From: Isoalcanivorax pacificus W11-5 | Lineage (GTDB): Bacteria; Pseudomonadota; Gammaproteobacteria; Pseudomonadales; Alcanivoracaceae | Length of the DNA stretch: 64,000 bases | Assembly (NCBI RefSeq): GCF_000299335.2 | Contig: NZ_CP004387.1 | Span: 1,860,001 to 1,924,000 of the forward strand | Reading direction: 5' to 3' | Shown here: positions 44,316-52,223 of the stretch, one piece after another | Layout of the letters: every line of letters starts with the position of its first letter | Numbering within the stretch: position 1 is the first letter of the stretch | Notes under the pieces: model-generated | What the model was told of the DNA's origin: nothing | Seen by the model: the letters and a program-made list of their open reading frames with translations, nothing else | Databases searched by the model: none | Position numbers and translations under genes: made by a program

Positions 44316-44324
44316 TGTTATACT
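44316..44324 (+). promoter_or_regulatory. Extended -10 promoter for the reverse transcriptase
   Basis: TGTTATACT: a TGn motif directly before TATACT. No -35 match at the right distance, as usual for extended -10 promoters. The predicted transcript start (~44331) is only about 9 nt before the TTG start codon. Confidence 0.5.
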
Positions 44325-44339
44325 TCATAGGCGCATATT

Positions 44340-45923
44340 TTGAACATCGACAAGGCAATTGAATTAGCGCTCAAAAATGTCCGGAAAGAGGGATTGACTG
44401 ACATCTTCCCTGTGCCTTTCGAAGTGTCGTTATTGAAGAGTGAGCACTTCCGTTCGTATCTCGCCGATCAAATTAAGGCAAGGATTAAATCAAACTCCTT
44501 ATCTGGCTTAAAGGTGTATCCGATAAGCCACGTTCTTTTCCCGAAAAAGGATGCATACGATTTTCGTAGAGCCGCACTTATTCAGCCAGTCGATACCATT
44601 GTCTATTTAGTGCTTGCGCTCCTATACGCAGATATAATTGAAAAGCATCGTATTCAAAAGCGTCACAAGGTGGTCTTTTCCTATAGGTTCAAGCCCAAAG
44701 GCGGGTACCTGTTTGATCCAAAGTTCAATTACACATCCTTTCAAGCGCATGTCACAGAGAGGCAGAAAAGCCGAAGAGTTAAGGTTCTAGTTAAGTGCGA
44801 TATTTCGAACTTCTATGACCGCTTGAATCTACATCGCCTTGAATCAACGCTCCTCAGTCTTCCTATTGAAGCCAAGCTAGTTAAACTAACCAATGAATTA
44901 TTACTATTTTGGGCTAATAGAGATTCGTATAGCCTTCCAATTGGCGGTAACGCAAGCAGGATCTTGGCGGAGGCATCTTTAATATCTGTAGATGACTATT
45001 TGCGGTCTCTAAAGGTTCAGTTCTGTAGATTCGTGGATGATTATCGGCTTTTTGCACCGGATGCAAAAACAGCCCATGCGTGGTTAACCATCTTGGTGGA
45101 AAGGCTCTATCTGGAAGGCTTAACCGTAAATCCGCTGAAAACTGTAATAGAAGATGTGTCGAAAAAATCGAAATCCTCCACCACAATATCTGAGGAAGCT
45201 AGGCAGGTTGCCAATGAACTGCGGCAAGGCCGAATCATTGTCGGCTACTCTGGAACCATACCAACCAAGTTCCGAGAGTTGTCAGAACGAGAAATTGCTG
45301 AACTTAAAGAGGCCGCAACTGAGGAGTTGGAGGAGCGTATTAGGAATAATCAAATTCTTCAGCCAGATGATGTCCGAAGGTTTTTGCGTATCGTTGTTGC
45401 TAGTGAGGATTACAGCAAGCTGTCACTATATCAATCGTTGATTGAAAAGTTTCCTCAATTTACGCCTTTGTTTATCGATCTTCTCATTAAAAAAGAATCT
45501 CTTATCCCAGTTACACTAAAAGAATCGATAAAGGCATATTTTTCTAACGTGTTGTCTGAGGGTGCGAAATATCCCGAGTACGTGCTGATTTCGATCGTGA
45601 GGCTCTTGGGGGTAAATGGGTTCTCTAATACTGCGGCTTTAATGGAGCTGTTTCGCAGCCTAAAGAGAAATTCCGGGGCATATATTGGCCGTGCAGTTTT
45701 GGATGCCTTGTCTGGAAACACATCGAGAACCGATGTGCTGGAAATTCGGCAGTATTATCCAAGAGCAGATCTTTGGGAGAAAAGGGCAATTATTAGAATT
45801 GTGGATTCCACGCTTTCCGAGGAAGAGAAGCGGCCTTGGCTCAGGAATGTGAAAGTGCATTCATCGGAAGATTACTTTGCAATCGAGTCATTTTATCCGA
45901 AGAAGACTAAAAATGAAATATGA
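44340..45923 (+). CDS. Reverse transcriptase of the UG/Abi (defence-associated) type
   Basis: 527 residues. RT palm motifs: motif A VKCDISNFYD (Asp154), motif B SLPIGGNASRILAE (198-211), motif C CRFVDDYRLF (Asp233-Asp234), then LEGLTVNPLKT. The SRILAE and (F/Y)VDD text is that of the unknown-group/abortive-infection RTs. There is no maturase or endonuclease domain, so not a group II intron, and no retron-type C-terminal text. Residues about 340-527 are a helical repeat-like region, as in AbiK/AbiA-type proteins. The start is TTG 44340 with a weak AGG site. AT-rich and codon usage unlike the neighbouring core genes, indicating transfer. Which UG group it belongs to is not decided. Confidence 0.88.
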   Translation: MNIDKAIELALKNVRKEGLTDIFPVPFEVSLLKSEHFRSYLADQIKARIKSNSLSGLKVYPISHVLFPKKDAYDFRRAALIQPVDTIVYLVLALLYADIIEKHRIQKRHKVVFSYRFKPKGGYLFDPKFNYTSFQAHVTERQKSRRVKVLVKCDISNFYDRLNLHRLESTLLSLPIEAKLVKLTNELLLFWANRDSYSLPIGGNASRILAEASLISVDDYLRSLKVQFCRFVDDYRLFAPDAKTAHAWLTILVERLYLEGLTVNPLKTVIEDVSKKSKSSTTISEEARQVANELRQGRIIVGYSGTIPTKFRELSEREIAELKEAATEELEERIRNNQILQPDDVRRFLRIVVASEDYSKLSLYQSLIEKFPQFTPLFIDLLIKKESLIPVTLKESIKAYFSNVLSEGAKYPEYVLISIVRLLGVNGFSNTAALMELFRSLKRNSGAYIGRAVLDALSGNTSRTDVLEIRQYYPRADLWEKRAIIRIVDSTLSEEEKRPWLRNVKVHSSEDYFAIESFYPKKTKNEI

Positions 45924-46001
45924 CAATGCCATCTGCTCGGGCGCATTTTTCGTTCGCTGCGCCTACTACAGTTGCGCCGGTTACGGTTGGTGTTAGGGGT
46001 C

Positions 46002-46577
46002 ATGCCAGACAAATACGCAAGCTTCGCAGAACTATCCGCCGCGGAGGTGGATGGCGCGTATCGAATTGAGCTGCAGGAGACGGGCTCCTCGGTTGCGCTC
46101 ATTGCTCCGCACGCCGGAAAAATTGAACCTGGAACATCCCAGATATGCAAGATCATTGCAGGGAGCAATCTAACCTACTATTTGTTTGAGGGTTGCAAGG
46201 CGAGCAACAACAGAGACCTCCACATCACAAGCTCACGGTTTGACGAGCCGAGAGGCCTAAAAACTGCCCAGTCGGCCAGAATCGTCGTCACATTTCATGG
46301 GCAAGCCGGAGAAGACTTATTCGTCAACGTTGGGGGCTTGGCGGGCGGTCTTAGGACCTTAATGATTGCAAAGCTAAAGTCGGTCGGCTTCGTTGCAAGG
46401 TTGCAGTCCAATCCAATGCTGCGAGGGCTAGATCCAAACAATATTTGCAATCGTGGATCAGAGAAAAAAGGACTGCAATTGGAAATATCCCGTGGGCTTA
46501 GAGATTTACTAATCACTGAAAAGCAGCAGATGGATCGCTTCTCTTCCACGGTTAGGTCCGTGCTTCATGGGTGCTAA
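46002..46577 (+). CDS. Poly-gamma-glutamate hydrolase-like zinc protein
   Basis: 191 residues resembling the PF05908 zinc amidohydrolases known from phages and Bacillus, which cut gamma-glutamyl chains. Candidate zinc and catalytic residues: His37 and Glu42 (APHAGKIEPGT), His74 (DLHITSSRFDEP), His99 (TFHG), and Glu161 in LQLEISRGLRDLL. ATG 46002 follows GGGG; it lies 78 bp after the reverse transcriptase stop on the same strand, so the two are probably co-transcribed. No signal peptide, so it acts inside the cell; its real substrate in this context is unknown. Confidence 0.78.
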   Translation: MPDKYASFAELSAAEVDGAYRIELQETGSSVALIAPHAGKIEPGTSQICKIIAGSNLTYYLFEGCKASNNRDLHITSSRFDEPRGLKTAQSARIVVTFHGQAGEDLFVNVGGLAGGLRTLMIAKLKSVGFVARLQSNPMLRGLDPNNICNRGSEKKGLQLEISRGLRDLLITEKQQMDRFSSTVRSVLHGC

Positions 46578-46614
46578 AAAAAGTACGGGGCACGCAGAGC
46601 GCCGGGCAAGCATA

Positions 46615-46698
46615 GGACACGCACGAATTAGCGATTTATGTGGATATTAAGATGATGTCATGTTGGTGAAGATCGGCATCATGAGTTCATGCCTGTCC
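46615..46698. repeat. Palindrome-ended repeat, copy A
   Basis: 84 bp starting GGACACGCACGAATT and ending TGCCTGTCC. Ends are inverted (GGACACGCA / TGCcTGTCC, one mismatch). It shares its interior (GCGATTT, GTGGAT, TGATGTCAT, ATCATGA) with copies at 47038 and 52090. Confidence 0.7.
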
Positions 46699-46706
46699 CC
46701 GATTGA

Positions 46707-46928
46707 ATTGCGGAGCCTACATGGCTCACTGTCTCCATCCTAGCGCGAGAAAGGCTAGAAGCCCTAAGTATAAGTATTACATATACTGATGATTGTGATG
46801 TTCCACCACTAGTAGGCGCTGCGCTTGGAGTCAATGATAGAGCTGCAAAGAGAAGGCTGAATCGAGTTGTAGCCAAGAAAATTATTAAACAAAGACTTAA
46901 TGAAAGGGATCCGAGTGGTGAAATTCTA
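46707..46928 (+). pseudogene. Gene remnant between repeats
   Basis: A frame of 73 sense codons with protein-like composition and a TAG stop at 46926. It contains DDCDVPPLVGAALGVNDRAA and a basic helix KRRLNRVVAKKIIKQRL. No ATG, GTG or TTG start with a ribosome site is available, and an in-frame TGA stands at 46704-46706. It begins 9 bp after repeat copy A, so it looks like the 3' end of a gene whose front was lost. Family not recognised. Confidence 0.4.
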
Positions 46929-47037
46929 GGGTAGTTTAACGAAGTATTGCAGAGATACAGCTAGGGTTAACAAGACGCTTCTGTCTGACAAGTTTTCCAC
47001 TGCGCTGCAAATTTGTGTAATGACCAAGAAAAATAAG

Positions 47038-47120
47038 GGAAACGCACAAATTGGCGATTTGGTGGATGTCGATACAATGTCATTCCAGTAGGAGTTGAAG
47101 TCGTGGTCTCATGCATGTTC
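47038..47120. repeat. Palindrome-ended repeat, copy C (degenerate)
   Basis: 83 bp from GGAAACGCACAAATT to TGCATGTTC. The interior aligns with copies A and B (TTGGCGATTTGGTGGATGTCG, AATGTCATTCC, TCATGC) but the ends carry two mismatches. The IS66 element lies 38 bp further on. Confidence 0.6.
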
Positions 47121-47150
47121 TAAATTTTTATTTTGATCGACGTTTTTTAG

Positions 47151-47158
47151 TTTCATGC
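47151..47158. repeat. Left 8-bp target duplication of the IS66 element
   Basis: TTTCATGC, identical to 49602-49609. IS66-family elements generate 8-bp duplications. Confidence 0.95.
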
Positions 47159-47183
47159 GTAAGCGTCCGGCTATCACGCCTTG

Positions 47184-48770
47184 CTAAACGGCATCCGGCT
47201 TCCAGTGATGCGGCAATAGCTCATCAATGGCATTGTTCTTCTGCGTCGGCAGTCGCTGCAGCACATCTCTCAGATACGCGTACGGGTCATGCCCATTCAG
47301 TTTAGCTGACTGGATCAGACTCATGATGGCAGCAGCACGCTGGCCACTGCGCAGGCTGCCGGCGAACAACCAGTTGGAACGCCCCAGCGCCCAGGGCCGG
47401 ATCTGGTTTTCTACCTGGTTGTTATCCATGGGCACGGCCCCATCCTCACAGTAGCGTATCAACGCCTGCCACCGCTTGAGGCTGTAGTCGATTGCCCTGG
47501 CCGTGGCGGAGCCGTTCGGCACTTTCTGCCGGTGTGTCATCAGCCATTGGTGCAAGCTGTTCAGGATGGGTTTTGATCGGTGTTGCCGGAGACGCTGTCG
47601 CTCATCGGCGCACAAGGCATTGGCCTCGCGCTCGATCTCGTAGAGCTGCTGGATCAGTCTCAGCGCCTGTTCGGCGATCTGGCTTTTGTTCGCCGTATGC
47701 AGGTCGTAGAACTTCCGGCGTGCATGGGCCATGCAGCCGATCTCGGTGATGCCGGTCTGGAAGCCCGCCTTGTAGCCGCTGTAGTCGTCGCAGACGAGTT
47801 TGCCCTGCCAGCCTTCGAGGAAGGTGCGGGCGTTGGCGCCGGCCCGGTTCTCGGCGAAGTCGTACACCACGGCATGCAGGGCGGCAGTGGTCGGGCTGCA
47901 GTAGGCCCAGATGTAGGCCCGGTGGGCTTTCTTCTTGCCGGGCGACAGCATGGGCACAGGCGTCTCGTCAGCATGCAGGACCGGCTGCGTAAGCAGTGTT
48001 TCACGCAAGGCATCTGCCAGCGGTTGCAGGGCCACGCCGCAGCGGCCCACCCAGTCAGCCAGCGTCGAGCGGGCGATGCCCAGCCCGGCGCGGGCAAAGA
48101 TCCTTTCCTGCCGGTACAGCGGCAAGTGATCGGCGTATTTGGCGATCAGCAGGTCGGCCAGTAAACCGCTGGTGGGCAGGCCCTTGTCGATGATCTGCGC
48201 CGGGACCGGGACCTGGGTGAGGCGTTCACAGTGTTTGCAGACCCACTTGCCGCGCACATGGCGCTCGACAGTAAAGGTGCCGGGGGTGTAATCGAGCTTT
48301 TCACTGATGTCTTCGCCGATGCGCTGGAGCTGGCAACCACAACGGCATTCAGTGTGGTCCGGCTCGTGCGCGATGATCGTGCGCGGCAGGGTCGGCGGTA
48401 ACGGCACACGCTTGGGCTGGCGCTTCTCCGGTGCCGAGGTGGCCCCCACTGATGCGACGGGCTCGGACAGTGTCACCTCAATCGCCGCGATATCCGCGTC
48501 CACCAGTTCATCCAGCAGGCTGGCCTGGTGGCTATCCAGGCCTTCACTGCTCTTGCCGAAGCGATGGCGCTTCAGGATAGCCAGCTCATGCGTGAGCTTG
48601 TCGTTCAGCAGCTGGTGACGCTTGAGCTGATGACCCTGCTGCGCAATGGTCTGACCTTGCTGAGCGATGGTGTGCTCTTTTTCCGCCGCATCGGCCAACA
48701 GTTGCGCCGCCAGTTGGCGTAGCTGTTCGGCAGTGAGCTGGTCGAGATGCGGCGGTGTCGTCATGGCCAT
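47184..48770 (-). CDS. tnpC: IS66 transposase TnpC
   Basis: 528 residues. DDE transposase of IS66. N-terminal leucine-rich coiled coil (QLTAEQLRQLAAQLLADAAE), zinc-finger-like CRCGCQ...CKHC segment, catalytic region with HADETPVPM (first Asp), CDDYSGYKAG (second Asp) and DNNQVENQIRPWALGRSNW (Glu). Start taken as ATG 48770; ATG 48764 is equally possible. No frame damage. Confidence 0.95.
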   Translation of the reverse strand: MAMTTPPHLDQLTAEQLRQLAAQLLADAAEKEHTIAQQGQTIAQQGHQLKRHQLLNDKLTHELAILKRHRFGKSSEGLDSHQASLLDELVDADIAAIEVTLSEPVASVGATSAPEKRQPKRVPLPPTLPRTIIAHEPDHTECRCGCQLQRIGEDISEKLDYTPGTFTVERHVRGKWVCKHCERLTQVPVPAQIIDKGLPTSGLLADLLIAKYADHLPLYRQERIFARAGLGIARSTLADWVGRCGVALQPLADALRETLLTQPVLHADETPVPMLSPGKKKAHRAYIWAYCSPTTAALHAVVYDFAENRAGANARTFLEGWQGKLVCDDYSGYKAGFQTGITEIGCMAHARRKFYDLHTANKSQIAEQALRLIQQLYEIEREANALCADERQRLRQHRSKPILNSLHQWLMTHRQKVPNGSATARAIDYSLKRWQALIRYCEDGAVPMDNNQVENQIRPWALGRSNWLFAGSLRSGQRAAAIMSLIQSAKLNGHDPYAYLRDVLQRLPTQKNNAIDELLPHHWKPDAV

Positions 48771-48847
48771 TATCTTGCCAGACGACACCGCCGGGAGTGA
48801 TACCAGAGAGGGCGCGCTGACCGGCGCACAGGCCAGCGCCAAGCGGC

Positions 48848-49183
48848 TTAAAGTATGGCAATGGCCTTGTCACGGCCAACCCGGTGCCAGGGCAAACCGA
48901 CCACCAGCGCCTGAAGCTGTTCGGATGTCAGGGCGATACGCTCGCCCTGACTCAGTCTGCCCCAGACAAAGCCGCCCTGATGCAAACGCCGCGCGGCCAG
49001 CCACAGGCCAAAGCCATCGTGCACCAGCACCTTCATGCGGTTGCCTCGCTTGTTGGCAAACAGGTAGGCGCAGTGGGGACGTGCTTCGCCGAATACCTGG
49101 ACCACACGGGCCAGGGCCGTATCCGGGCCGGCGCGCATATCCAGCGGCTCCGTGGCCATCCAGATGGCGTCGATCCGGATCAC
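48848..49183 (-). CDS. tnpB: IS66 accessory protein TnpB
   Basis: 111 residues, the IS66 Orf2 family: RAGPDTALARVVQVFG, CAYLFANKRGNRMKVLVHD, FGLWLAARRLHQGGF. Required for transposition in IS66 relatives; exact role unknown. GTG start overlaps the tnpA stop by GTGA, so it is translationally coupled. Confidence 0.95.
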   Translation of the reverse strand: MIRIDAIWMATEPLDMRAGPDTALARVVQVFGEARPHCAYLFANKRGNRMKVLVHDGFGLWLAARRLHQGGFVWGRLSQGERIALTSEQLQALVVGLPWHRVGRDKAIAIL

Positions 49184-49518
49184 GACGTAAACGTCCGCAG
49201 CCAGGGAAGGGCGCGCTCGATCTGTGCCAGAGGCCAGCGTACCGTTACGCCAGGCAGCTCGAACACTACCTCCGCCGCGCCGGACACAGAGGGCGTCGGC
49301 ATCGGCACAGGGACAAACTCACGCTGAACCGACGGCTTGGAACTGCCTTCGGCAGCACGGCGCCATTTATGAATAAGATTCGTGTTAAGACCGTAGCGCA
49401 GCGCCACATTGGCGACGGAAGCATCCGGGGCCTGGCACTCCTGGAGAATATTGGCTTTGAACTCCGGGGAATAGCGGCGGCGCTTGGCTGGTGTCTTGGC
49501 TGGAAGCATCTCACTCAT
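49180..49518 (-). CDS. tnpA: IS66 protein TnpA (HTH)
   Basis: 112 residues. N-terminal helix-turn-helix similar to IS3-type OrfA: RRRYSPEFKANILQECQAPD, then VALRYGLNTNLIHKWRR. Likely binds the element ends. First gene of the tnpABC operon. Confidence 0.93.
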   Translation of the reverse strand: MSEMLPAKTPAKRRRYSPEFKANILQECQAPDASVANVALRYGLNTNLIHKWRRAAEGSSKPSVQREFVPVPMPTPSVSGAAEVVFELPGVTVRWPLAQIERALPWLRTFTS

Positions 49519-49519
49519 A

Positions 49520-49553
49520 TTAGGTGTCCACTTAGAAATAGGTGGACACCTAA
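49520..49553. promoter_or_regulatory. Perfect 12-bp inverted repeat upstream of tnpA
   Basis: TTAGGTGTCCAC, 10-nt spacer, GTGGACACCTAA, one base before the tnpA start codon and inside the IS. It would hide or regulate the tnpA ribosome site, or bind TnpA. Confidence 0.6.
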
Positions 49554-49601
49554 GTTACTGGCGGAAATGGCGTCGGGTAGATGAGTTCGCCGGACGGTTA
49601 C

Positions 49602-49609
49602 TTTCATGC
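49602..49609. repeat. Right 8-bp target duplication of the IS66 element
   Basis: TTTCATGC, identical to 47151-47158. Confidence 0.95.
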
Positions 49610-49649
49610 GTACTTTTTATTGTTATTATTCTAAAAACTATGGGGTCGA

Positions 49650-52034
49650 ATGCATATGTACAAAGTGATTCAAACTAGAGGGCTAAATAAGTGCTTTCGG
49701 GTTCTCTCCAAAAGTGGAAAGAAGGGTAAAGATGCCATTACAAAGGTGCGAGCCGCTCTCGCTGAAGCCGGAACAGAGGGCTCTATTTTCTCTCTGAAGA
49801 GAACGAATCATGGAGAATCCAGGCTAAAAAATATAGAAAAATACGATTTAGGGGGTGGCTATAGGCTTGTTGTTCAGTTGGTCGATGGGAAGGAAAATGT
49901 CCGAGCGTTCCTCTTTGCTGGCGATCACGATGATTGTGAGCAATGGTTGGAGTCGCATAAGGATTATGAGTGGGTAAAGAGCAGCAAAGATCAAACTTTA
50001 GATTTTGTTCAGGTGTCCGAGAAAGAGCCTCGCAGCGTTCGTGTTGTGAATCCTGATATCGATTCTGCTGAAGAACTGAGGGCACTTCCGTTGCTTCGGC
50101 ATTTGGAATCAGTGGATATGGAATCTCTACAGCTACACGACAATCTTGTGGATTATGTTATGGGTGTTACTCCGGAAGATTGGGAGTGTGATTCCAGCGG
50201 GATACTAAGTCACATTGAGAGCATTGGTGGCATAGAGCGGGCTATTTTTTTTGATGATTTATTCTCACACTCTCACAAAGGCGAACTAAGTGAGTTGAAA
50301 AAGCGAGTCACACTTGAGTTGGGTGAGGCAGTCATAAGTGATGGCGCTGATCTTGCCAAAAGTATCGTTGAGCCACAGAATAGCGAGATATTTGTCACAT
50401 GGGAGGAGGTTGCTACTTTACCCGATGATTCGTCATGGGCGGACTGGCTGCTGTTCTTACATCCTGAACAAAAAGCGTTATCGCTCAAAGAATTCCGTGG
50501 CGCATCTAGGCTGAGAGGTGTATCAGGTAGTGGAAAAACATGCGTCATGCTTCATAGGGCGCGGCATTTGGCTAAGAAATATAGAGCGCCTATACTGCTG
50601 GTTACTCTGACCGAAAGCATGCGTAAACTTCTGGATTCTCTGATTAAGGAGTTGTGTGGAGTAGAGTCTTCATTTATACAGACGTCAACTATTAACGGTC
50701 TTGCCAAATACATACTTAAAGAGTTGCATCCAAAGGGAGAGGCTGCTTACCGTGTGGCAGATGGCGCGCTGGCAGATGGCATCTCTCGTGATCTTGTGAA
50801 GTTTGTGAAGAATCACGATAATTTCATGCAAACAAAGCTTTCGATATTAGATTATGCAGACCTGCGAAGGTTCTGTGATGAAGAGGTTTTTCATATTAGA
50901 AGTAGGTTAAAGTTTTCGGAATTTGATTCATACCTGGATACTCAGTCTTTTAAGCGCCATGGTCGGGTGGTGGGGCTTCCCGCTGAGGGGCGTAAGGTGT
51001 TTCTTGATGCTGCTCGGTACAAGGTCGATGCTCTGAAGAAATTGTTTGTGTTGGACTACGAAGGTGTGGTGTCAGCAGCAATTTCGTTGTTAGTCAAAGA
51101 TATGGATTCTCTGGAGTCATTTGGATGGGCTGCTGTCGATGCAGATGCTCTTGAAGGTGCTCTTTCGAGTTTTTTCCCATACCGCTGTGTTTTGGTGGAT
51201 GAGGTGCAAGATTTGTCGCAATTGGAAGTTGCGATGATCGGTGCTCTTCCTGTTGCTTCGGGAAACAGGATTGCAAATTCAGAGAATGGTTTGTTCCTTG
51301 TCGGAGACGGGGCGCAGACGATATATAATAAGGGTTTTGCACTAAAGAATTGTGGAATAAGTGTAAATAATCGAAGCTACGTACTGAAAAAGAATTACAG
51401 GAACTCGAAGGAAATAATGTCTGCGGCATATTCGTTAATAAAAAAATACAAGTTTGCTGATGTGGATGAGGACAATATAGATACTCCCACTAAGCCAGAC
51501 TTTGCGACAAAGGTGGGGGAGCGCCCATATGTTGTGAAGTGCAGAAGTGAGGAGGATGAGGTGGCACTCGTCTCTGCGATGATTAGGGGGCTGATAGATG
51601 AGCATCAAAGTCGTGAAGAAACAGAAGATTATCCTGAACTATGTGTTATCGGGCTGAACCCGGCAATTAGAAGGAAGATTTCGGGCCGCTTAAATGAACT
51701 ATCAATCAAGGCAGCCGAGTTAAAGCAAGCTGCTGGAGTGGAGTCATTCAATAGTGTTGCAATAAGCACAATTGAGTCTGCAAAAGGTCACGAATTTAGA
51801 CACGTATTCATAGTTGGTGTGGTTGATGGGGCTATGCCTAGTAAGTATGCGGGCGCTGACGAAATGGCGAGAGAGGCGTCTCGACTATACGTGGCGATGA
51901 CGCGGGCAAGAGAGAGGCTTATTATTTCTTATAATGTCGATAGACAAAATCAACCGAGTAGATTTCTAATTGATATTCAGGATTGCTGCGATGAGTATGA
52001 GTGGAGTTCTGGGCAGATAAAGGTTATGGAGTAA
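49650..52034 (+). CDS. RelE-like domain fused to a UvrD-type superfamily 1 helicase
   Basis: 794 residues. Residues about 3-105 resemble a RelE/HigB-type toxin fold: short helices, then GGGYRLVVQLVDGKENVRAFLF and GDHDDCEQWL, much like the beta-sheet of mRNA interferases. Residues about 265-775 are an SF1 helicase: Walker A GVSGSGKT (290-297), Walker B VDEVQD (516-521), motif III GDGAQTIYN, KKNYRNS, motif V ESAKGHEFRHVFIVG, motif VI LYVAMTRARERL. All ATPase motifs look intact. ATG 49656 is an alternative start (GGGG at 10 nt). AT-rich. Its upstream region was interrupted by IS66, 48 bp away. Function unknown; defence is likely. Confidence 0.82.
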   Translation: MHMYKVIQTRGLNKCFRVLSKSGKKGKDAITKVRAALAEAGTEGSIFSLKRTNHGESRLKNIEKYDLGGGYRLVVQLVDGKENVRAFLFAGDHDDCEQWLESHKDYEWVKSSKDQTLDFVQVSEKEPRSVRVVNPDIDSAEELRALPLLRHLESVDMESLQLHDNLVDYVMGVTPEDWECDSSGILSHIESIGGIERAIFFDDLFSHSHKGELSELKKRVTLELGEAVISDGADLAKSIVEPQNSEIFVTWEEVATLPDDSSWADWLLFLHPEQKALSLKEFRGASRLRGVSGSGKTCVMLHRARHLAKKYRAPILLVTLTESMRKLLDSLIKELCGVESSFIQTSTINGLAKYILKELHPKGEAAYRVADGALADGISRDLVKFVKNHDNFMQTKLSILDYADLRRFCDEEVFHIRSRLKFSEFDSYLDTQSFKRHGRVVGLPAEGRKVFLDAARYKVDALKKLFVLDYEGVVSAAISLLVKDMDSLESFGWAAVDADALEGALSSFFPYRCVLVDEVQDLSQLEVAMIGALPVASGNRIANSENGLFLVGDGAQTIYNKGFALKNCGISVNNRSYVLKKNYRNSKEIMSAAYSLIKKYKFADVDEDNIDTPTKPDFATKVGERPYVVKCRSEEDEVALVSAMIRGLIDEHQSREETEDYPELCVIGLNPAIRRKISGRLNELSIKAAELKQAAGVESFNSVAISTIESAKGHEFRHVFIVGVVDGAMPSKYAGADEMAREASRLYVAMTRARERLIISYNVDRQNQPSRFLIDIQDCCDEYEWSSGQIKVME

Positions 52035-52089
52035 TGGCGTGCATAACGATTGCATTTGCCGGACGGTAGGCTAGGCCGCCAACAATAAA

Positions 52090-52176
52090 GGACACGCACG
52101 GATTGTGGCGGTTTCGGTGGATGTCCGATCTGATGCCATCCCGACGATGGTTGATATCATGAATCCATGCGTGTCC
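52090..52176. repeat. Palindrome-ended repeat, copy B (best preserved)
   Basis: 87 bp with perfect 9-bp inverted ends GGACACGCA / TGCGTGTCC. The interior is shared with copies A and C. It lies 55 bp past the helicase stop and 47 bp before the small orphan gene. Confidence 0.72.
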
Positions 52177-52223
52177 CTAATTGAATTCGTTGACTGATTT
52201 CTGGGGGCTAACTTCAGGGAAAA

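Follow-up and report, generated by a model that had tools for sequence, protein, structure and literature searches.

Genes at the locus

The window, by which we mean the whole 64 kb stretch of DNA analysed, carries a reverse transcriptase (RT) gene and, on the same strand, a gene for a protein of the poly-gamma-glutamate hydrolase family, with an attC-like spacer between them. The features discussed below are listed by position in the window; comparison loci and genomes are referred to by L and G numbers.

44317..52105, no strand: variable insert behind an electron-transfer-flavoprotein alpha (etfA-like) gene, named by eye
44317..44323, + strand: 5' cassette boundary GTTATAC, with the cut expected between G and TT
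44318..45992, + strand: RT gene cassette, consisting of a 22-nt leader, one ORF and an attC
44340..45923, + strand: UG7/DRT8-type reverse transcriptase, 527 aa, TTG start, with an N-terminal RT domain and an all-helical C-terminal half
45918..45998, + strand: degenerate attC, with TATGAC where relatives have TATAAC and an R' box GTTAGGG at 45992-45998
46002..46577, + strand: PF05908 poly-gamma-glutamate-hydrolase-family protein, 191 aa, ATG start, following the attC

Profile searches with PADLOC assigned the RT to Drt8 (439.5 bits, E 6e-132, residues 4-513), the 493 positions of this profile being matched end to end, while the runner-up family, RT_UG21, scored 136 bits; the Pfam domain RVT_1 was found at E 3e-11. 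In an alignment of the window RT with 36 relatives (A5), every one of the 37 rows reaches E 1e-30 or lower against Drt8, a value that gives the Drt8 score and not its rank among families. Across a 32-row alignment that includes the window (A6), the motif A residue D154, D233 and D234 of FVDD, and P200, G202, S206, R207, I208 and E211 of the LPIG...SRILAE stretch are invariant (32/32). The C-terminal half is all-helical in an AlphaFold2 model (mean pLDDT 88). A preliminary description of this DNA had reported a UG/Abi-type RT with motifs A, B and C and a helical C-terminal region, all of which hold, and the class can now be given as UG7/DRT8. It had named membership of a well-described single-gene class as grounds against its proposal, and the RT is indeed a Drt8 protein with no recurring partner gene.

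Like DRT8/UG7 systems, the window RT is a single RT gene that matches the Drt8 profile over nearly its full length, but it differs from them in travelling as an integron cassette. PMC12596737 attributes a PD-(D/E)XK domain to DRT8, and that description does not fit this copy, for which Pfam gives no match to such a domain and the predicted C-terminal half is all-helical. No nuclease gene recurs beside the RT among 44 loci, and the RT was not found in viral contigs or phage records. A promoter scan returned two promoter-like sites, both on the - strand. PMC13314766 lists DRT8 among the DRTs whose mechanism it calls unresolved. We infer that the RT is a self-contained antiphage UG7/DRT8 enzyme, the antiphage function of this particular copy being presumed.

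The second protein matches PF05908 at 175.4 bits (Pfam; gathering cut-off 22, E 1e-51) in a near-complete profile match covering positions 1-176 of 191. Solved enzymes of this type match it at E 2.5e-31 to 5.6e-26 and share His37, Glu42 and His99 in the alignment, residues that we take to be the zinc ligands. This agrees with the PF05908-like assignment and the conserved His/Glu residues noted earlier for a 191-residue protein starting 78 bp after the RT stop codon, and both ORFs are present; the hydrolase frame is open from a TTG at 45972. The two genes are confirmed as real and not chance matches. The retained residues suggest that the protein may hydrolyse gamma-PGA. It has the His/Glu/His pattern in common with the gamma-PGA hydrolases PghP and YndL, but differs from them in being encoded on a Pseudomonadota-type chromosome and in adjoining an integron site. 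It was not found in viral contigs.

The attC-like spacer and the reverse transcriptase cassette

An attC motif scanner proved too strict, so a covariance model was used instead, trained on 14 attC sites from RT loci other than the window. Positions 45918-45998 gave the top match in the whole 64 kb (17.7 bits, E 0.032, filters off), followed by a match of 12.7 bits, and E was 0.0061 when 12 kb were searched. Over the window plus 43 RT loci (0.53 Mb), the same site was the weakest of 43 matches at E up to 1 (E 0.27). These matches are confined to the window and L035, L040, L044-L047, L051, L054 and L056; 14 of the 43 are training sites, expected by construction, and independent further sites occur in L035, L040, L044, L045, L051 and L056. 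An attC can fold through complementary R and L boxes, which the window site does not: its bottom strand folds no better than shuffled sequences (z -0.36), compared with z -5.5, -2.8, -2.7 and -2.3 for the four attC of L044 and L046 and z -2.0 and -0.8 for the two of L045. We read the spacer as a probable worn attC, placed exactly at the expected border. A worn attC between the genes means that the RT and the hydrolase are most likely separately acquired mobile genes.

The borders of the RT cassette were delimited by comparison with integron-borne relatives. DNA homology between the window and L044 and L045 spans 44317-45927 and no further, so that it takes in just 23 nt before the RT ORF and 4 nt after it. 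At the GTTATAC boundary, homology to the congeneric genome G500 ends and homology to the integron-borne RT cassettes starts. The cassettes of L044, L045 and L046 begin with GTTATAT and end with TATAACAA, a palindrome and a GTT core; in these three loci and in L035, attC sites stand on both sides of the RT. The covariance model places an attC directly 3' of the RT in 9 of 43 relatives, although eight of these nine sites, chosen by eye, had trained the model, the exception being L051 (22.6 bits). R'' lies close to the stop codon in these nine relatives, at most 5 nt ahead of its end and at most 22 nt past it. Their 5' border is complementary to R'' at 6 or 7 of 7 positions in every case (9/9), a level of at least 6/7 that random pairs reach in 264 of 20000 draws, in a control that ignores the choice of the best among several upstream GTT; the window has 5 of 7. 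With 16-40 nt of leader before the start codon, these nine loci each hold one ORF, a short leader and an attC, which identifies the RT ORF alone as the mobile unit. Clusters of attC that have no integrase, and integron cassettes in general, likewise consist of an ORF bounded by a GTT core and an attC, but the window differs from them in its worn attC and in a genome with no intact integrase.

When the presence of an attC was mapped onto the RT tree (37 rows, 10 labelled), at least six changes were required, by a quick method and with long branches flagged, which indicates that cassette capture or loss happened repeatedly. As few changes as observed were needed in 43 of 500 shuffles; the label is not clearly clustered. 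One further UG7 RT, in L048 (3520-5109), is preceded by GTTAGAT and followed by ATCTAA with no attC match, and lies between genes that by eye resemble an aminotransferase and a PEP carboxylase; it may be a cassette that became fixed at a secondary site.

The insertion point was compared with congeners. In G500, a genome of the same genus whose etfA-like gene is 97% identical, about 5.1 kb of other sequence replaces the insert. Homology with the window breaks off at 44317-44320 and picks up again at 52106, and G500 carries CTGTTAGAG where the window has CTGTTATAC at the break point. Two attC sites lie at this same point in G500 (31 and 29 bits, E 2e-6 and 6e-6), followed by a GmrSD_N/NsnA-like protein and a HEPN protein, both of defence types. 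The insert is missing from two more distant congeners, G1101 and G717. The GTT at which the RT cassette sits lies 3' of the etfA-like gene, and the same point is occupied by other cassettes in a congener. A search of the window's own genome gave no match over the cut-off for an intact integron integrase. A remnant does persist: 67 aa of a truncated integrase, 57% identical to the intact G500 enzyme, share a locus with an attC of 34.6 bits (L099, 1369-1881 and 2634-2693, beside an acetolactate-synthase-like operon). This locus is the remains of a chromosomal integron.

GC content is 43% in the RT cassette, 51% in the hydrolase and 62% in the window, and 62-63% in the transposase part of the insert (47184-49584), where 47184-49518 holds transposase genes that look IS66-like by eye. 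Behind them, a low-GC gene at 49650-52034 encodes a 794-aa UvrD-type helicase (Pfam UvrD) resembling the GajB and RTasHel profiles; by eye, its N-terminal 120 aa or so have the look of a RelE/ParE-type toxin. Repeats at 46608-46705, 47030-47126 and 52079-52183 were considered as a second recombination site and rejected, being REP-like palindromes by eye. Such palindromes (GGGACACGCACGAATT ... ATTCATGCGTGTCCC) flank pieces of the insert, recur in G500 and are also present in L109 (type judged by eye). At 46700-47025, an ORF remnant ending near 46936 is followed by GGTTAACAAG and could be another broken cassette end, for which the attC model gives no support. The flanking repeats of the Vogesella locus L043 were likewise rejected as attC and look REP-type instead.

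Conservation of the pair and contexts of PF05908

Conservation of the gene pair was assessed in 43 RT relatives, 36 from a scan of genome contigs (31-83% identity) and seven from other searches. The window hydrolase served as phmmer query (E up to 1e-3) against the ORFs of 60 aa or more in these RT loci, and the window alone was positive: PF05908 stands beside the RT in none of the 43. Three loci (L071, L072 and L077) end inside the RT and four (L043, L046, L055 and L074) less than 600 bp behind it; the other 36 continue for 700 bp or more past the RT, and none of these flanks contains the hydrolase. The four closest relatives (83, 79, 78 and 75% identity) have different neighbours or none. 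Within 3.5 kb of the RT, the 44 loci together contain 297 ORFs; 14 families among these recur in more than one locus and none is PF05908. The commonest, present in six loci, is taken for an AAA-type ATPase from its Walker motif; two families occur in three near-identical loci (L057, L058 and L060), and eleven in two loci each. Of the 390 genomes searched within the order, four have RT relatives (E up to 1e-20) and three have PF05908, the window's genome being counted in both, and only that genome has the two together. PF05908 is rare in a wider sample of the phylum as well (7 of 398 genomes, the window's included).

The covariance model detects no attC 3' of the hydrolase in 12 kb of the window, so its reading as a cassette derives from its start position alone. 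This start, 3 nt past the R' box GTTAGGG (45992-45998), indicates that the hydrolase is the next cassette or a gene behind the insertion point and that it would work independently; it may be a full cassette, a truncated cassette or a gene standing at the insertion point. We therefore read the pair as two neighbours in an integron-derived insert and not as one system, with a single-gene RT cassette and an independent hydrolase, and put the probability of this reading at about 0.85. The family of the RT, its boundaries, the attC-like site and the lack of both a conserved partner and conserved flanking DNA are established here.

Surroundings of PF05908 elsewhere were inspected at 15 further loci, a selection and not a survey, of which seven are on plasmids (hand-picked from 45 records) and eight are genomic, L090-L095 with 1.5 kb of flank per side. 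Clear defence-type partners are present at three (L081, L083 and L087), and L085 has a QueC-like neighbour, which may be part of a Qat-type locus; the remaining 11 have housekeeping, phage-like or unclear surroundings. In Roseibium, PF05908 lies beside a PDC-S06 ATPase. None of the 15 has a convincing attC, the one match scoring 14 bits (E 0.51). A Rhizobium rhizogenes plasmid encodes a 1310-aa protein (L081, 668-4600) with RelA/SpoT towards its N-terminal end and PF05908 at its C-terminus, near a SIR2 gene. On a Delftia plasmid (L083, 3017-8555), genes for an Mrr-type nuclease, PF05908 and qatABC run in one direction, where PF05908 may be an accessory of the Qat locus. At L089 (2424-10417), PF05908 is clustered with genes that by eye resemble NUDIX, gamma-glutamylcyclotransferase, ADP-ribosylglycohydrolase and calcineurin-type phosphatase genes.

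These contexts bear on two other accounts of the pair. The preliminary description had proposed a single defence unit with the hydrolase as effector or regulator, a pairing that would be expected to recur. The shared strand, the 78 bp spacing and the defence-like surroundings of PF05908 in Delftia, Roseibium and Rhizobium would suit such a unit, but the adjacency is seen in 0 of 43 RT relatives, both genes co-occur in only one of 390 genomes of the order (the window's own), and an attC-type boundary separates them. We consider the two-gene unit highly improbable, while a functional link may have arisen in this genome alone. Alternatively, the RT acts as proposed below and PF05908 is an independent defence or stress gene acquired at the same place, a cytoplasmic gamma-glutamyl hydrolase directed against phages or other elements. 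This would fit the three loci with clear defence partners, the possible fourth (L085), and the description of integrons as defence-gene stores (Darracq et al. 2025, as cited in PMC13064858), but 11 of the 15 loci have other or unclear surroundings, the seven plasmid loci were hand-picked, and PF05908 occurs in just seven of 398 genomes of the phylum. We regard this version as unlikely, although a defence role of its own is possible for the window hydrolase. Taken together with the window, the qatABC, PDC-S06 and RelA/SpoT contexts lead to a broader idea, that Gram-negative PF05908 proteins are portable intracellular gamma-glutamyl hydrolases of anti-phage loci. We consider this quite unlikely; if true, it would set their function apart from the capsule removal supposed for the phage enzymes.

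As cassette neighbours, the pair itself is ordinary. Its interest lies in the fact that integron cassettes delimit the smallest moving unit: single-ORF cassettes in 9 of 43 loci argue that DRT8 needs neither a partner gene nor a separate ncRNA, and the window RT cassette offers DRT8 in a naturally minimal form, which would be simple to test biochemically. A short gap between same-strand genes of a defence island may, by the same token, be an attC site and not an operon spacer. That integrons store defence genes is already known (Darracq et al. 2025, cited in PMC13064858); we found no published link between DRT8 and integrons in a search that covered subscription journals thinly.

Possible action of the reverse transcriptase

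Structure comparison placed DRT4, DRT6, UG15, Abi-P2, AbiK and AbiA nearest to the RT model, with query-normalised TM-scores of 0.39-0.54 for the first twelve structures. Abi-P2, AbiK, AbiA, DRT4 (UG15) and DRT6 combine an RT domain with an all-helical C-terminal domain, as the window RT does, although identity to them is 13-16%. Template-free, tyrosine-primed DNA synthesis is described for AbiK and Abi-P2 in PMC9508834. Since the fold is nearest to DRT4, DRT6, Abi-P2 and AbiK, the likeliest action of the RT would be protein-primed, template-free DNA synthesis. Upon phage infection, the enzyme would make DNA with neither a template nor an ncRNA, using a residue of its own as primer, and the infected cell would be arrested in consequence, a mode of action reported for Abi-P2, AbiK and DRT4. 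We hold this course of events to be moderately likely. For this copy, DNA synthesis, priming and antiphage function are all presumed properties, and the template-free mode is suggested by the modelled fold together with the lack of conserved flanking DNA.

Alternatively, the RT could depend on a template RNA whose coding sequence lies within or close to the RT gene, in the manner of DRT2, DRT9 and DRT10. Several DRTs use ncRNA templates, and such an RNA may lie inside the ORF or the attC. The cassettes, however, have leaders of only 16-40 nt, homology to L044 and L045 extends just 23 nt ahead of the ORF and 4 nt past it, and no Rfam match near the RT locus comes close to a gathering score. The cassette has no room for a separate ncRNA gene outside the ORF and attC, which favours template-free synthesis; we consider an RNA template unlikely.

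Two conserved tyrosines stand out with respect to protein priming. Tyr159, in motif A, is invariant in both alignments (32/32 in A6, 37/37 in A5), and Tyr303 is invariant in A6 (32/32) and present in 36 of 37 rows of A5, within a low-confidence stretch of the model (279-304) that forms the linker between the RT domain and the helical domain. As a guess, Tyr303 or Tyr159 is a candidate primer residue.
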